IMG/VR virus record: IMGVR_UViG_3300048023_000075
Coordinates: 1 to 20,283 of that record
Reading direction: 5' to 3' (one strand)
Length of the DNA stretch: 20,283 bases
Source of the DNA: a virus
In this document: positions 1,879 to 20,283 of the stretch, one piece after another
How positions within the stretch are numbered: position 1 is the first letter of the stretch
Layout: each line of letters begins with the position of its first letter
Made by a program: the position numbers and the translations under genes
Notes under the pieces: model-generated
What the model saw: the letters and a program-made list of their open reading frames with translations, nothing else
What the model was told of the DNA's origin: nothing
The model's database searches: none

Positions 1879-3112
1879 TTACGAACCGTTAAGGTCAAAC
1901 ACAACAGCGTGTGCCTTAGGCGCGGTCGGCTTGAGCGCCCACTCAACCACAAGGTGGCTGGTTTGAGCGTCGCCGTCTTTTGCCAAGTCTTCCTCAAGGA
2001 AGTTACGGCCGTTCAGTGTGCAGATTGACACAAAGTCTGGGTCAATCAAGAACAAGCGGTCGTTACCAAGCAGTCGAGACGGGACGGCCTCCACCGTACC
2101 CCAATCCGTCAAAAATACACTCGTGGAACCAACATATGCGACCTCTTTAGCCGCAGTCATGTTCACGTCGTTTGACACCAGATTGCCTGTGGCAGACAGG
2201 TCCGAGAAATTGGCCCGGTTGGTAGCGCTGGCAACCATCAGGCGAGGGTTACCGCCGTCGGTCCACGCGTCTTGCATGCCGTCCTCGATCAAGGCAAGTG
2301 TCAACGGGCGGGCCGTGCCTGACGTGATTGTTGTTGTGCCGTCGGCACCAACAGCAAACGCACCAGTTGCGCCGACTGAACCGTTTGACATCCAGCAAGT
2401 CAGAGACGCTGACTTACGAGGGTCATTGCCGTCACGGGCAACGTCGGTGTCACCGATTGCCTTTTCTATATCGCGGCGCAGTTCGAGAGCCTTCAACACC
2501 TTCTGGTAGTTGTGTTCCCGCTCACGGCCTGCTGTGTCAACTGCGTCAAGCACTTTGTTACCGCTGGCCTGTTTATGACCAACTTCTACGGCTTGTAATT
2601 AGGTTATACCGTAGATCAGACTATATCTTCACTTTCGTGTTGGGCGCTCGTGGGCAGATTATTCTTTCGTCACCGCCTAGTCGTTGAACCTTCACCAGCC
2701 CTCAGCTTTCGCTTCCATCTGGCGCTTGGCTGCTGATTACCCGCCTCCGGGCTTCCCAGCAATTCACCCAATTTTTTTCCTGAACCAGTCAGATAGCAAT
2801 CTGATTTAGAACAGGGGAACCATTGAACAGTTTAGTTCCACTGGTAGCAAATACCTTCTTGGAAATCTGGTGGTAGTTGCCCACGCGTGATGTTGGGGTC
2901 GCCGCTGCTGTCGCAGTGGTCGCACCTTCGTTGTGGTAGTTAGTGTCTGACGCGGCAGTCAATTCTTGGACCTGCCACTCAGTAAAGATACCATTGCTGG
3001 TCTCTTTTTTTACGTTGCTGAAAATCGGTGTCTCAGCAGGGTCGATGCGGTAAATAATATCGGCGAGTTGCTCCTTTTCGCCAATCGCCGCTCCTGTCGA
3101 AAAAACAGTCAT
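1879..3112 (-). CDS. Major capsid protein, SU10/DUF5309-type, split by a group I intron (join 3112-2834, 2550-1879)
   Basis: The mature product is predicted as 93 residues from exon 1 (3112-2834) plus 223 from exon 2 (2550-1882), 316 in total, normal for this family. Exon 1 has the family's N-terminal pattern: STGAAIGEKEQLADIIY, IDPAETPIFSN, then WQVQELTAA and RVGNYHQISKKVFATSGT. Exon 2 continues LDAVDTAGREREHNYQ and LELRRDIEKAI, which in relatives directly follows the SGT. Read without splicing, exon 1 runs into the insert and stops after 14 extra codons (107 residues), losing most of the protein. The ATG has GAGGAG upstream. The gene follows the scaffold gene by 17 bases. Capsid identity is confident. 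Exact exon ends are inferred from intron pairing and the protein alignment. Confidence 0.88.
2551..2833 (-). ncRNA. Group I self-splicing intron (IA-like, no ORF) in the capsid gene
   Basis: Minus-strand coordinates. P element AATTGCTGGGAA (2764-2753); Q AATCAGCAGCC (2738-2728); R GTTCAACGACTA (2689-2678); S AAGATATAGTC (2629-2619). Pairings seen: P1, exon GGAACU (2839-2834) with GGUUCC (2821-2816), ending in U.G at the 5' splice site; P3, UUGGGUG (2771-2765) with CGCCCAA (2646-2640); P4, UGCUG with CAGCA; P5, GCCC with GGGU; P6, GCC with GGC; P7, GACUA with UAGUC; P7.1-like GGCGG with CUGCC between P7 and P3, typical of subgroup IA; P8, CAC-GAAA-GUG; P9, CUACGG with CCGUAG; P9.1, UUGGUC with GGCCAG; P10, UCAA (2826-2823) with exon-2 UUGA (2549-2546). 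The terminal G is 2551. The 283 nt hold no endonuclease ORF. Confidence 0.92.
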
Positions 3113-14479: not shown

Positions 14480-16321
14480 CTAATTGTTTTCATTTACTAT
14501 CCACACCCGATTGCCGTCGGACGCCACAATTCTCTTCTCCATTAGCTTGTGGCGCGCCTCACCGGCTCTCTGACGCGCTAAATCGGGGCATTTTGCCTTA
14601 TGCGCCTCGTGCCAAAGTGACGACGCGACGGCCTGATTACCCGTCTCGATAATCACGTTTTGCAGCGCCTCAAGCGCCATCTGCTGATTAACCGACAGGC
14701 CGCCCGACTTGCGCTTCTTCGGCACCTCATCGCCGTCCAGACGCGTCAACACAATGGACGACCCGTCGATCAGCGCCACCTCGGTCATCTCGAACACCTG
14801 CTCATCGACTGGCTCGGCGTCCTTCTGCTTCTCGCACCGCATATATACGAGGCTCTCGTCCTTTGCGACCACCAGCGACGTATCTACGGCGCCCAGAAGC
14901 GCGCTGGAGCCGCGCATGCCTCTCGTGCTGTCCTTGCCGCTGTGGTGTATACCCACCAACGCGCACTTGCAGTGCGCCTTGAGGCTATCCGCCGCGGCAA
15001 CCCACAGCCCCAGCTCGGTCGCGCTGTTCTCGTCCGCCCCGACCAGTGACCGCGCCACCGTGTCGACGAACACGCACGTCCAGCCGTCACCCTCACGGTC
15101 GATCGAGCGCATCAGCTTCTCGACGTCGCTTTGTTCACGAAAATTCACCGCCACCTGCAAGACGTGCAGGTTCTCGCCCACCTGACGGCCGTTGTGCGCT
15201 TCCCACGCCTTGAGGCGCTTACCCAGCCCGCCAACGCCCTCGCCCGCTATGTACAGCACCTTACCCTGCCGCGTCTGCATGCCCTGCCACGGGATGCCCT
15301 CAGCAATCGACAGCGCCATATCTAGCGCGATAAACGACTTGCCCGCACCCGGCGCGCCATACATAACGCTGAGGCCGTGCTGCGTAATGATGCCACTATC
15401 GCCATCGCCAATGACCCAGTCTATCGGCGGCATGTTTCGTATGTAGCTGGCGCCAACGAAGTCGAAGTAATCGACGTCCGGCTCACCCGCATTGTCGTTG
15501 TCCGCCGCCACGTCGACCGCCGGCGCCTCGCCCAGCATCTCTGCCGCCTTAACTTCCGACAGCATGTCCTCAATATCCCGACCGCCGGCGAGGTAGTCGA
15601 CGACGTCGCCCTTGTCTGCCAGCCCCGACAGCTCGACGACCTTGACCGCCGCCGCACCGTCGAAGATATTGGCGACGACCGTGTCGGCGTGCGCCCTGCC
15701 CGCGTCGTCGTTGTCAGGCAGGATCACGACATTGCGACCCGCGAACCACTGGTTCAGCTCGGGCTTCCAATTCTTCGCCCCGCCGTTATTCGTTGTGGCG
15801 ACGATGCCGTGCCGCGCCAAACGGTCGGCCGCCTTCTCACCCTCGACGATAAACACCGGCATGTCCGGGCGTGCCAGCATGTCGTGCAGGCGGTACGGCA
15901 ACGGCGTCACGCCGTCGAGGTTGTGCAGCCAGCCGCCGTTACCGTCTGGCCTGACAGCCCTAAACGTCTTCGGCTCGTAACGCCTCACCTGATACTGCAC
16001 GACGCCGTCAGCGTCTGTGTAATCATACACCGCGCTCATAAACCGCGCCGGTTGCAACTTCACCTGCGCCTGCTTTTGTATGCCAAATTTCTTTTCGAGT
16101 ATGTCCGGGATGCTACCCATTATTGTGGCGCCCTCATTCGCGCGCACAAGATCGACGACACCCCCGCCCTCGTTTGCCTCGAAGTCAAACCAAGTGCCTT
16201 TCCGCAGGTCGACTTCCCTTGAGCCGTGCGTACCCCAGCGCAGCGTGTGTCCGCGCTTCTGGTTAGGCTCGCCCCAGTACGCCTTGGCGACCGTCTCTAT
16301 ATACGATGCGATATTACTCAT
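14480..16321 (-). CDS. TOPRIM primase / RepA-like helicase fusion
   Basis: 613 residues from ATG 16321, preceded by GAGGG; a longer frame to 16384 is in frame but lacks a site. Residues about 40-60 show WFDFEANEGGGVVDLV, a phage-primase N-terminal signature; no zinc-finger cysteine set is seen. The TOPRIM domain has FIVEGEKAADRL (Glu about 160) and VVILPDNDDAGR (Asp about 203 and 205). The helicase half has Walker A YGAPGAGKS (321-329), a Walker B-like CVFVDT (Asp about 420) and GIHHSGKD (about 457-463), as in RepA/RAD55-type hexameric ATPases. It probably primes and unwinds phage DNA. The next gene on the strand is across a 132-bp structured gap. Confidence 0.9.
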   Translation of the reverse strand: MSNIASYIETVAKAYWGEPNQKRGHTLRWGTHGSREVDLRKGTWFDFEANEGGGVVDLVRANEGATIMGSIPDILEKKFGIQKQAQVKLQPARFMSAVYDYTDADGVVQYQVRRYEPKTFRAVRPDGNGGWLHNLDGVTPLPYRLHDMLARPDMPVFIVEGEKAADRLARHGIVATTNNGGAKNWKPELNQWFAGRNVVILPDNDDAGRAHADTVVANIFDGAAAVKVVELSGLADKGDVVDYLAGGRDIEDMLSEVKAAEMLGEAPAVDVAADNDNAGEPDVDYFDFVGASYIRNMPPIDWVIGDGDSGIITQHGLSVMYGAPGAGKSFIALDMALSIAEGIPWQGMQTRQGKVLYIAGEGVGGLGKRLKAWEAHNGRQVGENLHVLQVAVNFREQSDVEKLMRSIDREGDGWTCVFVDTVARSLVGADENSATELGLWVAAADSLKAHCKCALVGIHHSGKDSTRGMRGSSALLGAVDTSLVVAKDESLVYMRCEKQKDAEPVDEQVFEMTEVALIDGSSIVLTRLDGDEVPKKRKSGGLSVNQQMALEALQNVIIETGNQAVASSLWHEAHKAKCPDLARQRAGEARHKLMEKRIVASDGNRVWIVNENN

Positions 16322-16340
16322 AATAAACCCTCGACCCCTG

Positions 16341-16385
16341 TTCCCTTGAGGTGGTGGGCGACGCCAAGGGAAAACGCCGCCCACC
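16341..16385 (-). promoter_or_regulatory. Interleaved stem-loops in the primase leader
   Basis: The minus-strand order is A GGTGGGCG (16385-16378), B TTCCCTTG (16372-16365), A' CGCCCACC (16360-16353), B' CAAGGGAA (16348-16341), each arm pair a perfect 8 bp. They cannot form as two simple hairpins, so they are alternative folds or a pseudoknot, ending 20 bases before the primase ATG and 11 bases before its GAGGG. Confidence 0.55.
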
Positions 16386-16391
16386 CACGCA

Positions 16392-17039
16392 CTAGAACAG
16401 GTCGCTGCCTGCGCTTGCAGCGGCCGGTGGTGTAGCCGCTACGGGCGGCGCTACCGGTGCTGGTGCGTGTTCTTGTGACGCAGGCGTGCTGCCTGCCCCA
16501 TCCATTGCTGCTGGACGATCGACCCAGTTGACGATGCTCAATACCGGCGCCTTGAAACGCAACTCGCCCTGTGGCGACTGCATCTTAATCGTCTCGGGCG
16601 TGCCAGCCTCGATCACCGGTATCTTGCCGGGGTTCGCATTACGCTCGGCCATAAACTGGTCGTGCAGCTTGTCGACCACCCGCAGCACAGTCTTCGCGCT
16701 GTGGCTAAACTCCCGCGGGCCGCTCTCGCCGCTGATAACGATACGCATACGAAACGCCTGCTTATGCTCTTCGCTTGGCTTCGCCATCATCGCGTCGCCG
16801 ATCTTGACCATATGAAAGTCAGGCGCACCCGAGGCAAAGCTCAGCCAGCCCACTTCCATCGCGTCCAAGTCTGCGGCGAATTTGAAACCCGGCGCAATGT
16901 CCTCTTCGTTCTTTTGCCAAGTGCCGTCCGCGCCTTGGACGCGGTCTTGCTTGATCCAGTCACCACCCTTCGCATCGAATTTGATGATCGGTAAAATGTC
17001 CCCGCTGCTGCGGGCTTCTGTAGAAAAACCTAATGCCAT
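16392..17039 (-). CDS. SSB-like single-stranded DNA-binding protein (putative)
   Basis: 215 residues. The first 170 are an apparently beta-rich domain with FDAKGGDWIKQDRV, MEVGWLSFASGAP, SGESGPREFSHSAK and a conserved-looking FKAPVLSIVNWVDRPA. The last 45 residues are Pro/Ala-rich and disordered, ending GSDLF, which resembles the short acidic-aromatic C-terminal hook of bacterial SSB. Proteins of this size next to primase genes are common in phages of alphaproteobacteria; the SSB role is inference from position and tail. ATG preceded by AAGGAG. A 70-base leader follows before primase. Confidence 0.62.
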   Translation of the reverse strand: MALGFSTEARSSGDILPIIKFDAKGGDWIKQDRVQGADGTWQKNEEDIAPGFKFAADLDAMEVGWLSFASGAPDFHMVKIGDAMMAKPSEEHKQAFRMRIVISGESGPREFSHSAKTVLRVVDKLHDQFMAERNANPGKIPVIEAGTPETIKMQSPQGELRFKAPVLSIVNWVDRPAAMDGAGSTPASQEHAPAPVAPPVAATPPAAASAGSDLF

Positions 17040-17071
17040 AACGATTTGCTCCTTAACATCAACATTAGTTA

Positions 17072-17503
17072 TTAAAATGACCTGATTACTCGCAGGTCGC
17101 TTAGTTGGTAGTAGGCACAGACGTCGGCGTCCTGTGGGTCGCCTCGGTCTGACCTACCACCCTTCCGCACCTCGAAGTCGCTGGCAAAGTCCAAACGCGC
17201 CAGACAGTCGAGGTAGAGAATTATGAGATAAGACGGCAAACCAGTCGTGTCTGTCAACTGCCTTGCCTTCAAAACTTTTGATAAGCTGATCATCACCGAC
17301 GGGTATGCGTCGTGTTTTACCCGGCGCGCCTTGACCTCACCGAAGCCGCAGACCGAGCCGCCGTCGCGCAGGTCGTGTATGGCGAAGTCCAGCTCATAAC
17401 GCACCGGCAGCTTGCAAAGCTCGTACCCGTGCAGCTCTAGCATGTCAGCGACGCGCTGCTCGTTGTCTAGGTCGCCCTGCGTCTCATACTTCGGCCGGGT
17501 CAC
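17072..17503 (-). CDS. PD-(D/E)XK-like nuclease (putative)
   Basis: 143 residues using GTG 17503, which overlaps the previous stop (GTGA); a TTG 12 bases upstream would give 147. Near the N-terminus, DNEQRVADMLELHGYELC puts a Glu in the first helix, ELDFAIHD supplies the Asp (about 39) and GFGEVKARR the E-x-K (about 56-58). This spacing is the PD-(D/E)XK core. The family is not named; Holliday-junction or restriction-like nucleases are candidates. It lies between two other small genes and near another ExK nuclease. Confidence 0.65.
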   Translation of the reverse strand: MTRPKYETQGDLDNEQRVADMLELHGYELCKLPVRYELDFAIHDLRDGGSVCGFGEVKARRVKHDAYPSVMISLSKVLKARQLTDTTGLPSYLIILYLDCLARLDFASDFEVRKGGRSDRGDPQDADVCAYYQLSDLRVIRSF

Positions 17504-17679
17504 TTGATTTTCCAATCGACGCCATCTTCGGTAATTAAGCAGTAGGTGTTCTCAACCTGCTCAAAGCCGCGCGCTGTCATTGCGACGTGACACTCGCTGA
17601 TCGTCTCGTGCTTCGATATGACGTCGACCTTACCCGACGTGTCGCTAGTCATCACCACTAATATCAGCCAATACTTCAT
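17500..17679 (-). CDS. Small hypothetical protein, 59 residues
   Basis: ATG 17679 overlaps the stop of the nuclease gene (ATGA), and the TGA overlaps the next GTG. It reads MKYWLILVVMTSDTSGK, then VDVISKHETISECHVAMTAR and GFEQVENTYCLITED. The first ten residues are hydrophobic, possibly a short signal or strand. Two Cys. I recall comparable small phage proteins with an E-C-H-V-A-M motif but no known role. Good linkage to both neighbours supports translation. Confidence 0.62.
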   Translation of the reverse strand: MKYWLILVVMTSDTSGKVDVISKHETISECHVAMTARGFEQVENTYCLITEDGVDWKIK

Positions 17680-18122
17680 ACTACCCCCGCCAGATGCTCT
17701 CGCAGCACCATCTCGAATGTGTCCCAGTCCATCGTTACCGTGTAGCGCCAGTCATACGCCTCAGCCAAGTCACCGGCCAACGGTGCGCCCAGCATCACCA
17801 GCGCCTGCACCGGCAGCCTCACCTGTATCGGCTGGCGATCGAGCTTATATATCAGGCACGGCAGGGCGTCATCGACGTTAGCCGCAGACCGTGCCGCCGT
17901 GACGATTTGATCCCACCACTTCGGCGACACACCGCTCGCGTACCGCTTGCACTCGATCAGGAACGGGAACGGCTTGCCGTCGGCAGGTTCCAGATCGCTC
18001 AGATCCTTCTCCTGATATTGCGATAGGCGTCTTCGTAATTTGCGAGATGTGGCCTGCTCAACCAGCTTGGCTATTTCGCGCTCGAAGGTCGCCCCCTTAG
18101 AACGTCCACCACCGGCGCGCAT
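17676..18122 (-). CDS. Holliday-junction-resolvase-like PD-(D/E)XK nuclease
   Basis: 148 residues. GRSKGATFEREIAKLVEQ (Glu about 14), then QEKDLSDLEP (Asp about 43) and FPFLIECKRY with Glu about 57 and Lys about 59, followed by WWDQIV (Gln about 72). The order GR.KG..FER.IA....D..DL....PF.IECK....W.Q is characteristic of archaeal Hjc-type or phage resolvase-like nucleases, which cut branched DNA before packaging. It starts one base overlapping the RHH gene's stop (TGATG). Length is right for the family. Substrate is inferred from the fold only. Confidence 0.78.
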   Translation of the reverse strand: MRAGGGRSKGATFEREIAKLVEQATSRKLRRRLSQYQEKDLSDLEPADGKPFPFLIECKRYASGVSPKWWDQIVTAARSAANVDDALPCLIYKLDRQPIQVRLPVQALVMLGAPLAGDLAEAYDWRYTVTMDWDTFEMVLREHLAGVV

Positions 18123-18331
18123 CAGCCCAGCTTCTCCAAACCGGCACGCCCAGCCTGACCGTCGAGCGACGACTGAACATTGCGCTGCCGGATCTTGCTG
18201 GCAATCTGCGCCGCAAGCATCTCATCCGCCAGCGACGACTGGCTACGGTGAGCCGATAATTCTAGCTCGCCCTTGAGCGCCTCGATGGTCGAGGTTCTGA
18301 GCCTCAGCAATACTGGCTTGATTTCAGACAT
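18122..18331 (-). CDS. Ribbon-helix-helix DNA-binding regulator
   Basis: 69 residues. KPVLLRLRTS is a basic amphipathic beta-strand at residues 5-14, followed by helix STIEALKGELELSAH and helix SSLADEMLAAQIASKIRQ, the Arc/MetJ/CopG fold that binds DNA as a dimer through the strand. The last 20 residues are a Gly/Ser/Asn tail. ATG has GAGGTGA upstream. It is the first gene of the long leftward unit and faces the divergent rightward genes, so it probably represses or sets one or both. The palindrome between them is a candidate site. Confidence 0.75.
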   Translation of the reverse strand: MSEIKPVLLRLRTSTIEALKGELELSAHRSQSSLADEMLAAQIASKIRQRNVQSSLDGQAGRAGLEKLG

Positions 18332-18441
18332 TTGATATCACCTCAAAATTATTTAGCTATAGGGGTTGTGTTTTATGAATATAAAGTCCATATTCAAATA
18401 GTCGAGAGGCACAAAACAGGTAAATTGCAAGGGAGACTAAA
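18332..18441. promoter_or_regulatory. Divergent intergenic control region
   Basis: This AT-rich 110-bp gap must hold promoters for the leftward RHH unit and the rightward early genes. A possible rightward pair is TTGTGT then ATATTC about 17 bp on; leftward, TATAGC-like sequence lies before the RHH site. Both are weak matches. The palindrome at 18376-18396 lies centrally. SD AAGGGAG precedes the rightward ATG. Confidence 0.45.
18376..18396. promoter_or_regulatory. 7-7-7 palindrome, candidate operator
   Basis: TGAATAT, AAAGTCC, ATATTCA: perfect 7-bp arms with a 7-bp spacer, centred between the two divergent genes. Position within the likely promoter overlap suggests repressor binding, most simply by the adjacent RHH protein. 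Confidence 0.5.
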
Positions 18442-18672
18442 ATGACTAAGATTGATTGGAACCGCGAAGACAAATACACCGACGCAGAGTTTGACGCAAT
18501 CGAGCGCAATGCCGACGGTGACATTTGTCACGACCTTGACCTGCATCTTTTGTGGATGACCGAGGCACAGCGTGATCGCTTGACTGGCGACGATCAGTAC
18601 CGCGCCGATCTGGCTGACGAGGAAATGGCCTGCATGCACGCAGATGCCGCAATCGAATTTGGCGTGGCCTAA
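18442..18672 (+). CDS. Acidic small hypothetical protein
   Basis: 76 residues: MTKIDWNREDKYTDAEFDAI, then ERNADGDICHDLDLHLLWMT and DEEMACMHADAAIEFGVA. It is strongly acidic, with no membrane segment and no family I recognise. SD AAGGGAG lies 7 bases before ATG. It is the first gene of the rightward unit, so likely early expressed. Small acidic early phage proteins often bind host enzymes or inhibit DNA-binding proteins; nothing in this sequence decides that. Confidence 0.68.
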   Translation: MTKIDWNREDKYTDAEFDAIERNADGDICHDLDLHLLWMTEAQRDRLTGDDQYRADLADEEMACMHADAAIEFGVA

Positions 18673-18696
18673 CAGCCCCGCCTGATGGAGATCACA

Positions 18697-18816
18697 ATGA
18701 TTAAAGACATAATCGGAATGTTGTTTTTGGTGTCGTTTGCGGTGGTGATGTGTACCAACATCGTGACGACTAAGTGGAACGTGTGGGCTTTGATGGTCAA
18801 GTTAGGGGTGCAGTGA
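18697..18816 (+). CDS. Single-pass membrane micro-protein, 39 residues
   Basis: GGAG lies 7 bases before ATG 18697. The product is MIKDIIGMLFLVSFAVVM, then CTNIVTTKWNVWALMVKLGVQ. Residues about 5-22 are hydrophobic and can span the membrane. The Cys at 19 lacks a good lipobox (Met before it). The stop shares one base with the HNH gene's ATG (TGATG). Function unknown; small membrane proteins in early phage operons may affect host envelope or superinfection, but this is conjecture. Confidence 0.6.
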   Translation: MIKDIIGMLFLVSFAVVMCTNIVTTKWNVWALMVKLGVQ

Positions 18817-19490
18817 TGATACACGCATTTACTACCGCCTCAGACATACGCGGGCATGAGAGCGTCGTCAGAGCCTTTGAGGCTGACGGCATGAAGGTCG
18901 AGCTTCCAGACGGCTACATCGTGTTCGATCACTTCTATGACCCCAACCGCCCAGTCGAGGTGAATGGCTCGATATACGCGCCAGAAGTTGGCACAGTCGT
19001 TTACCCCACATCTGTCGGCATGCCAGCCGACGCGTCCTGCTACCTTGTGCTGGCGAAGCACCGCACCCAGAAAACTTACTTCAACGGTGACTACGACGTC
19101 AGCTCGGACATCGTCTGCGTCAAGACGCATAAGACGCCGAAGTTTCGCACGGTCAAGCACATCATTCGGTTTGTGCCAGAAACGCGCCGCCTTGTGTTTG
19201 AGAAGACAAAGCGAGAGAGGCGCAAGCAGTCGCCGTCAATGCGGCTGGCCTCGTTCAAACGTCAGAAGGCTTTGCGCTGGGCGACGCCAAGGTGGTGCGA
19301 CAGGCGCGAGCTTGACCGGCTGGTGAGAAAAGTCAGGGGCATGAATAAGCAAGCTGGCTTTATCAAATTTCATTTAGACCACATCGTGCCGCTTCAAGGT
19401 AACGACATATGCGGTCTACATGTGCCGTGGAATTTGCAGGTAATCACGGCTGAAGAAAACCTGCGTAAATCTAACAAGTGGAGCAGTTAA
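18816..19490 (+). CDS. HNH homing-type endonuclease
   Basis: 224 residues from ATG 18816, chosen by its overlap with the micro-protein stop; a longer frame from 18774 is unsupported. The C-terminal domain has HLDHIVPLQGNDICGLHVPW, then NLQVITAEENLRKSNK: His 186, Asp 188, His 189, His 202, Asn 206 and Asn 215, an HNH nuclease core of the restriction/homing type. Residues about 10-130 are an N-terminal domain of unknown role, with a strongly basic linker about 130-180. It may nick host or phage DNA, cut during packaging, or be a mobile gene. It is 16 kb from the intron. Confidence 0.82.
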   Translation: MIHAFTTASDIRGHESVVRAFEADGMKVELPDGYIVFDHFYDPNRPVEVNGSIYAPEVGTVVYPTSVGMPADASCYLVLAKHRTQKTYFNGDYDVSSDIVCVKTHKTPKFRTVKHIIRFVPETRRLVFEKTKRERRKQSPSMRLASFKRQKALRWATPRWCDRRELDRLVRKVRGMNKQAGFIKFHLDHIVPLQGNDICGLHVPWNLQVITAEENLRKSNKWSS

Positions 19491-19491
19491 A

Positions 19492-20283
19492 ATGGTCGGT
19501 AAAAAAACACCAAATCACATCATCACCGCGAGCCGCATACCGGCTCTGATGAACGCGTCGCCCTACGACACACCCAACGATCTGCTGGCAAGCGTGCTGG
19601 CAGACATCGAGGGCAAACCCGACCCGAAGCCGTTTAACGGCAACGAGGCATGCGATTGGGGCGACACACTTGAGCCGGTCATACTGCTTACCGCAACCGA
19701 GCGCCTCGGCCTCGACGACTTGAAGCTCGAACACGACGCGCTGTTCTACGACAAGATACCGTTTGCGGCGTCGCTCGATGGCACCGCAGATGCCGGTGTC
19801 GGTGGCTGGGTCGACACCGATTATGACAAGGGCATCATCTGCCCCAACGGCCGGGTGTTTGTGACCGGCACGGGCGTGCTGGAGAGCAAGCTCACCAGCG
19901 CTAAGCCAGAAGAGGCGCCAGCGGCTCACAGGGGTGTCCTACAGCTACAGGGGCAGTTACTGGTCAGCAAAGCCACTTGGGGCGCTGTGTGCGTGCTATA
20001 CGGCGGTGTAGAGCTACGCATCTTCCTGTATCAAGCCGACGCGGCCGTGCAGGCGAAGATCATCGACGCCATCGAGGACTTCGAGCGCCGCAAGCGCGAC
20101 ATCGAGTGGTATCCGGTGCTGTCGTCGTCTGACGGCAACACCGCCTACCCACGGGTGGACGACGGCGCCCCGCCGCTGGATCTGCCCGCCACCGAGGCTG
20201 AGTGGCTCGCACAGCTCGTTAATGCCAAGGACGCCAAGAAGGCAGCCGAGGCGGACATAGACGAGGCTGAGGCGGCTCTCAAA
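19492..20283 (+). CDS. YqaJ / lambda-exonuclease-type recombination nuclease, 3' end cut
   Basis: 264 codons open from ATG 19492 to the window edge, GGAG about 8 bases upstream. N-terminal HIITASRIPALMNASPY, then NEACDWGDTLEPVIL (Glu about 61), AASLDGTAD (Asp about 96), VLESKLTSAKPEE (Glu about 131, Lys about 133) and HRGVLQLQGQLLV (Gln about 154). This is the YqaJ-type PD-(D/E)XK core of 5'-3' exonucleases that make single-stranded tails for phage recombination. A ssDNA-annealing partner may lie beyond the window. An extra loop at about 102-126 before the ExK strand is unusual. The C-terminus after about 205 is helical and acidic. Confidence 0.85.
   Translation, partial: MVGKKTPNHIITASRIPALMNASPYDTPNDLLASVLADIEGKPDPKPFNGNEACDWGDTLEPVILLTATERLGLDDLKLEHDALFYDKIPFAASLDGTADAGVGGWVDTDYDKGIICPNGRVFVTGTGVLESKLTSAKPEEAPAAHRGVLQLQGQLLVSKATWGAVCVLYGGVELRIFLYQADAAVQAKIIDAIEDFERRKRDIEWYPVLSSSDGNTAYPRVDDGAPPLDLPATEAEWLAQLVNAKDAKKAAEADIDEAEAALK

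Follow-up and report, generated by a model that had tools for sequence, protein, structure and literature searches.

An ORF-less group I intron in the major capsid gene of a phage, and its relatives at other sites of the same gene

The split capsid gene and its intron

The window, by which we mean the whole stretch of DNA analysed, is a virus contig of 20,283 bases in which the major capsid gene occupies 1879-3112 on the minus strand and is split into two exons by an intron. The features of this locus, in the order of transcription, are as follows.

2834..3112, minus strand: exon 1, capsid codons 1-93 (frame join and Pfam match)
2834-2839, minus strand: P1 exon strand GGAACU, the final six bases of exon 1
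2551..2833, minus strand: group I intron of 283 nt, with omega-G at 2551 (RF00028, homology and P1)
2823..2826, minus strand: P10 intron strand UCAA, partner of exon 2 UUGA (2546-2549)
2816..2821, minus strand: internal guide sequence GGUUCC, the P1 intron strand
2765..2771, minus strand: P3 5′ strand UUGGGUG, partner of CGCCCAA (2640-2646)
2730..2762, minus strand: P4 (2757-2762 / 2730-2735) and the P5 hairpin (2748-2751 / 2740-2743)
2689..2729, minus strand: P6, P6a and P6b, with a GAAA loop
2619..2682, minus strand: P7 (GACUA 2678-2682 / UAGUC 2619-2623), enclosing P7.1 (2673-2677 / 2653-2657), the P3 3′ strand and P8 (GAAA loop)
2552..2616, minus strand: P9 (2609-2614 / 2586-2591), P9.1 (2577-2583 / 2563-2569) and, within the same span, P9.0 (2615-2616 / 2552-2553)
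1879..2550, minus strand: exon 2, capsid codons 94-316 and stop (frame join and Pfam match)

Excision of 2551-2833 joins position 2834 to 2550, placing codon 93 (ACT) directly before codon 94 (CTT), and yields a 316-aa ORF in which ...KKVFATSGT is followed by LDAVDTAGRER.... The spliced protein matches Pfam SU10_MCP over residues 9-313 (2.7e-70) and is of the SU10 type, with solved relatives 9ny2 and 7z45. It is collinear with the proteins of intron-less relatives, the nearest of which (L002-L006, 95-97% identity) are uninterrupted across the codon-93 site. Without splicing, the ORF comprises 107 aa (2789-3112). These results bear out a sequence-only reading of the window, which had described an SU10-type capsid gene split by an insert, a capsid frame restored by the 2834/2550 join and an unspliced product of 107 residues, and had pointed to the SGT site of intron-less relatives, which is unbroken in the closest of them.

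The insert matches Rfam RF00028 at 2598-2835 on the minus strand (64.1 bits, E 1.8e-14, against a gathering score of 50), and no ORF of more than 53 codons was found within 2551-2833. P1 is formed by GGAACU and GGUUCC, its pair at the 5′ splice site being U.G, and the final intron base is G; both features are likewise present at every site of the census described below. A P1-P10 structure drawn by hand, in which P2 and P2.1 are also drawable, fits the MFE fold (fold z = -2.7) except for P7, P9.0 and P10, whose pairing is non-nested or involves exon bases. The MFE fold cannot represent the P3-P7 pseudoknot, and offers a different local hairpin at the position of P7. Covariation was followed helix by helix within the window intron's own family only, comprising ten distinct copies. 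The core helices form in all ten and nearly all pairs are retained, with one P4 pair broken in one copy, and compensatory changes occur in P1, P5 (two), P7.1, P9.0, P9.1 and P10; no compensatory change was found in P3, P4, P6, P7 or P8 within this close family, and for these helices the evidence is the Rfam model. The copies at codon 112 keep three of the four P10 pairs. P7.1 is a single hairpin between P7 and P3 with one compensatory change, and the intron probably belongs to subgroup IA. By the tests applied, 2551-2833 is a group I ribozyme intron, presumably self-splicing. The earlier outline of an ORF-less intron on the minus strand, with both splice sites, P1 with U.G, P3-P9, a P7.1-type hairpin and P10 with exon 2, stands on the RF00028 search that the same reading had suggested, on the intron-less relatives and on covariation in several of the helices.

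Intron sites across the capsid family

IMG/VR was queried with capsid codons 113-316 only, a C-terminal query whose ranking is unaffected by upstream introns, and 155 contigs were returned, 139 of them usable and nearly all spanning the entire upstream part of the gene. The capsid gene is uninterrupted in 111 of the 139 and split in 28. ORF-less group I introns are found in the capsid gene of about 20% of the full-length IMG/VR relatives, about 80% having none, a figure to be taken descriptively rather than as a rate since the contigs are non-independent samples. An intron of this kind had seemed uncommon from the sequence alone, an impression contradicted by this proportion and by the capsid introns of isolates (LittleE and Tuc2009, discussed below). 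Six sites are occupied, all within codons 23-112.

Codon 22.67: intron of 210 nt, splice sites solved with P1 (L249 included)
Codon 54.33: intron of 250 nt, splice sites solved with P1
Near codon 79: intron in L098, RF00028 70.4 bits, placed by eye with one P1 mismatch
Codon 93.0: intron of 283-285 nt, splice sites solved with P1
Codon 107.33: intron of 251-252 nt, splice sites solved with P1 (phage C72C1, OQ984150, included)
Codon 111.67: intron of 284-287 nt, splice sites solved with P1

At the five sites solved with P1 (here called codons 23, 54, 93, 107 and 112), excision restores the frame except in L230 and for L249's second insert, and the product of the spliceable copies is 316 aa wherever the contig is complete. 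Among 80 loci in a search open to downstream introns, none was found beyond codon 113. A search of genome contigs for prophage relatives returned none, with a query that joined the C72C1 N-terminus to the L096 C-terminus and is little informative. The split in L230/L387 was dropped as an intron: codons 85-112 are tandemly duplicated there, with no intron, possibly through an assembly error.

Codons 93 and 112 are occupied by a single intron lineage, with few differences in the 266 nt past the guide (more in L229). Between L264 at codon 93 and L258 at codon 112 there are zero substitutions in these 266 nt, with only a 2-nt insertion, exon identity at synonymous codons being 87.5%. Over the first 16-19 nt the two sites have different sequences, each fitted to its own exon, such that the guide changes together with the exon strand (codon 93: GGAACU/GGUUCC; codon 112: GGUGCU/GGCACC). 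A second lineage, 85-86% identical, occupies codons 54 and 107. One further record, L109/L249 (IMGVR_UViG_3300025759_005138), has a codon-23 intron and a second intron that links the site-93 5′ exon to the site-112 3′ exon, with codons 94-112 lost; this second insert may be an assembly chimera or may derive from recombination inside the intron.

Spread within a site and change of site

Other copies of the window intron share 92-98% of their sequence with it, in hosts that match at 27-42% of fourfold exon sites and, for three close-kin copies, at 71-72%. Within six codons of the insertion site, synonymous identity among independent bearing lineages is 0.73 at codon 93 and 0.77 at codon 112, versus 0.31 and 0.43 among intron-less ones (p <= 0.0005 by permutation, and about 0.005 after the P1/P10 codons are excluded). 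At codon 23 the permutation test was not significant, a footprint there being present in some lineages only, and at codon 107 the co-conversion footprint was not significant. Beside the site, bearers are unlike their nearest intron-less relative and like distant bearers, in L178 by 10 to 0, with 6 to 113 in the same comparison away from the site; the distant partner was picked by top local match, which inflates the p values of this comparison, a bias from which the permutation test is free. The tract can be read in individual codons, where L264 at site 93 has TTT GCC ACG AGT GGA ACT / CTT GAT GCA GTT and its relative L250 has TTC GCC ACA TCC GGC ACT / CTG GAT GCT GTG. The serine codon three before the site is AGT in all lineages bearing the codon-93 intron, and in the intron-less relatives displayed it is mostly TCN, with one AGC. 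Exon codons up to about 20 nt from the site moved with the intron, and the exon tree requires at least 13 gains or losses to account for the patchy presence of the intron. Because RNA-based insertion would not bring exon changes, we interpret spread within a site as DNA homing, and the footprint points to a mobile intron with co-conversion typical of that process despite the lack of an intron-encoded endonuclease.

No endonuclease gene was found inside the intron or adjoining the capsid gene, and homing of an intron without its own endonuclease would be driven in trans. The window has one candidate for this role.

18774..19490, plus strand: free-standing HNH-type gene, phrog_26577 (weaker: phrog_1035), on the opposite strand to the capsid gene

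Among the window and contigs of at least 33 kb, the HNH gene occurs in 4/6 intron-bearing and 1/11 intron-less contigs (p = 0.03, confounded by kinship). An identical HNH gene is present in G019, whose site 93 is empty, and in the window, whose site 23 is empty. As a proven mobiliser it was rejected, in that the window and G019 share the HNH block but differ in their introns. This block (window 15612-20282; L316) is 4.7 kb long and 99.7% identical to G019, whereas the two capsid genes are about 92% identical; by sequence comparison, both genomes are mosaic. In 29 contigs, Pfam HNH_3 had zero matches, and GIY-YIG was found in four intron-less contigs only. Distant SU10-type capsid genes in L087 and L099 contain group I introns with opposite-strand HNH-like ORFs, making an uncoupled pair of intron and endonuclease plausible. 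It is hypothesized that the gene at 18774-19490 is a candidate helper for homing of the intron, to which it shows a weak association.

Taken as a whole, we consider it highly probable that the insert is a splicing group I intron and a selfish passenger, homing in trans and becoming established at new sites more rarely. The transcript would fold such that P1 sets the U.G exon-intron junction into the active site, a guanosine held in P7 would attack the 5′ junction, and exon 1 would attack the phosphate after omega-G (2551) by way of P9.0 and P10, rejoining the capsid mRNA exactly to give the full 316-aa protein. Among coinfecting phages, the intron would spread through double-strand-break repair at intron-less alleles (homing). 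More rarely, its core would settle at another site of the same gene, where the guide would come to fit.

Were the insert not spliced, the two halves would have to be produced separately, or ribosomes would have to bypass it. The end of the site-93 intron does supply an in-frame GTG or ATG ahead of exon 2, but the equivalent position at site 112 is ATG TAA, a ribosome-binding motif is not evident by eye, and in every copy the frame is restored exactly by excision at group I splice sites whose P1 is matched; this reading is barely tenable. Hardly more credible is regulation of capsid synthesis through conditional splicing, a role that the sequence-only reading had allowed for. It appeals only to the location in a highly expressed gene, whereas roughly four-fifths of full-length relatives manage without an intron in this gene and its presence is patchy even among near relatives. 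This patchiness, together with the flanking-exon footprint, favours a selfish mobile element over capsid control, which is unsupported. A splicing intron inherited vertically, its high identity reflecting structural constraint on the ribozyme, would agree with the strong constraint on group I cores and with changes in the family that are mostly compensatory or in loops. However, the loops are conserved too, although synonymous exon sites are near saturation, and vertical descent is contradicted by flanking synonymous codons that move with the intron and by an exon tree that demands many gains and losses, leaving it very unlikely.

Two further explanations concern the change of site. Cores may have been swapped by recombination between introns already present at both sites, with no move to a virgin site, a rival that bears on this step only. 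L264 at codon 93 combines the invariant site-93 5′ end with a core identical to the site-112 introns of its own lineage, and the L249/L109 join resembles such recombination (or an assembly error); yet identity identifies the donor weakly because core diversity is low, and no gene was found in which both sites have an intact intron. We regard core swapping as possible, though on the unlikely side. The other explanation, compatible with the selfish, trans-homing intron proposed here, is an RNA route, in which the intron reverse-splices into capsid mRNA and is returned by reverse transcription and recombination, after which the guide adapts. The same core at codons 93 and 112 (L264 and L258) and the second lineage at 54 and 107 are in keeping with it, as are the 4-6 positions at which, judged by eye, an old guide would pair with a new site. 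Reverse splicing would, however, bring the old 5′ end, yet the first 16-19 nt differ by site; partial guide matches at several sites are expected by chance, and the flanking-exon tracts show same-site spread to be DNA-based. The RNA route is accordingly rated as doubtful.

Relation to known introns

Capsid introns, ORF-less phage introns and collaborative homing are each already known. The cluster J mycobacteriophage LittleE has a probable group I intron in its major capsid gene, efficiently spliced in vivo as judged by RT-PCR and N-terminal sequencing, and the same work cites a capsid intron in lactococcal Tuc2009 (PMC3706429). In both LittleE and the window, an intron of this type interrupts the major capsid gene, but that of LittleE has a LAGLIDADG-like ORF and one known site, whereas the window intron is ORF-less and its gene has six sites; no capsid introns closer than that of LittleE were found in the literature searched. 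The BAKA/Optimus tail gene has an ORF-less intron of 265 nt with confirmed splicing, part of which is nearly identical to the LittleE intron of another gene (PMC3706429). Here too a small ORF-less group I intron lies in a structural gene, but it is a tail gene, and the sharing is across two genes rather than two sites of one capsid gene. In cyanophage S-PM2, a psbA intron and the free-standing F-CphI engage in collaborative homing (PMC6083498), an arrangement like that of the window in pairing an ORF-less intron with a separate endonuclease gene (here a candidate). F-CphI adjoins psbA, whereas the window's candidate HNH gene is 16 kb away from the capsid gene. Between the S-PM2 psbA intron and the window intron there is a short DNA match in the P3-P6 region.

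Related rDNA group I introns occur at two positions, for which reverse splicing has been hypothesized (PMC1299323, PMC3984707), a route without direct experimental evidence according to a review (PMC3984707). As in the capsid series, relatives occupy two sites of one gene, which has been regarded as circumstantial evidence for ectopic movement, but the rDNA introns are in rRNA genes, whereas the capsid series is in a phage protein gene and has near-identical cores with exactly refitted guides. The Jug phages have many small group I introns in essential genes, with splicing partly supported by metatranscriptomes (PMC12363816); they are other phages with introns in other genes, and the portion of the source consulted describes no multi-site capsid series.

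What appears to be new in the literature searched is the multi-site series in one capsid gene and its near-identical cores with refitted guides. That an endonuclease-free intron family homes in trans and hops between sites of one phage gene, its guide refitted each time, can be put forward only tentatively and with low confidence. Such single hops could possibly be reconstructed from close natural phages, with reverse splicing as one conceivable route. Six sites, two two-site lineages with refitted P1, intron-less siblings for many of the bearers and a measurable exon footprint occur together in one short gene, a series that makes DNA-based versus RNA-based intron movement testable and offers a natural test case for how group I introns spread and shift position.

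Environmental phage capsid genes can be mis-annotated as two fragments, as is also the case for phage C72C1 (L082, OQ984150). There, each half of the intron-split gene is annotated as a separate "major head protein" gene, and three small hypothetical genes, all antisense, are placed between the halves or across them. Group I introns also occur in L085, L086, L090, L091 and L095, in genes resembling another phage capsid family; those of L085 and L091 were checked by Rfam, and Pfam support for the five loci is absent or below the curated cut-off. Related introns with an endonuclease-like ORF inside are found in L103, in a gene that resembles ribonucleotide reductase by eye, and in L104 (Proteus phage PV535314), in an annotated terminase gene.
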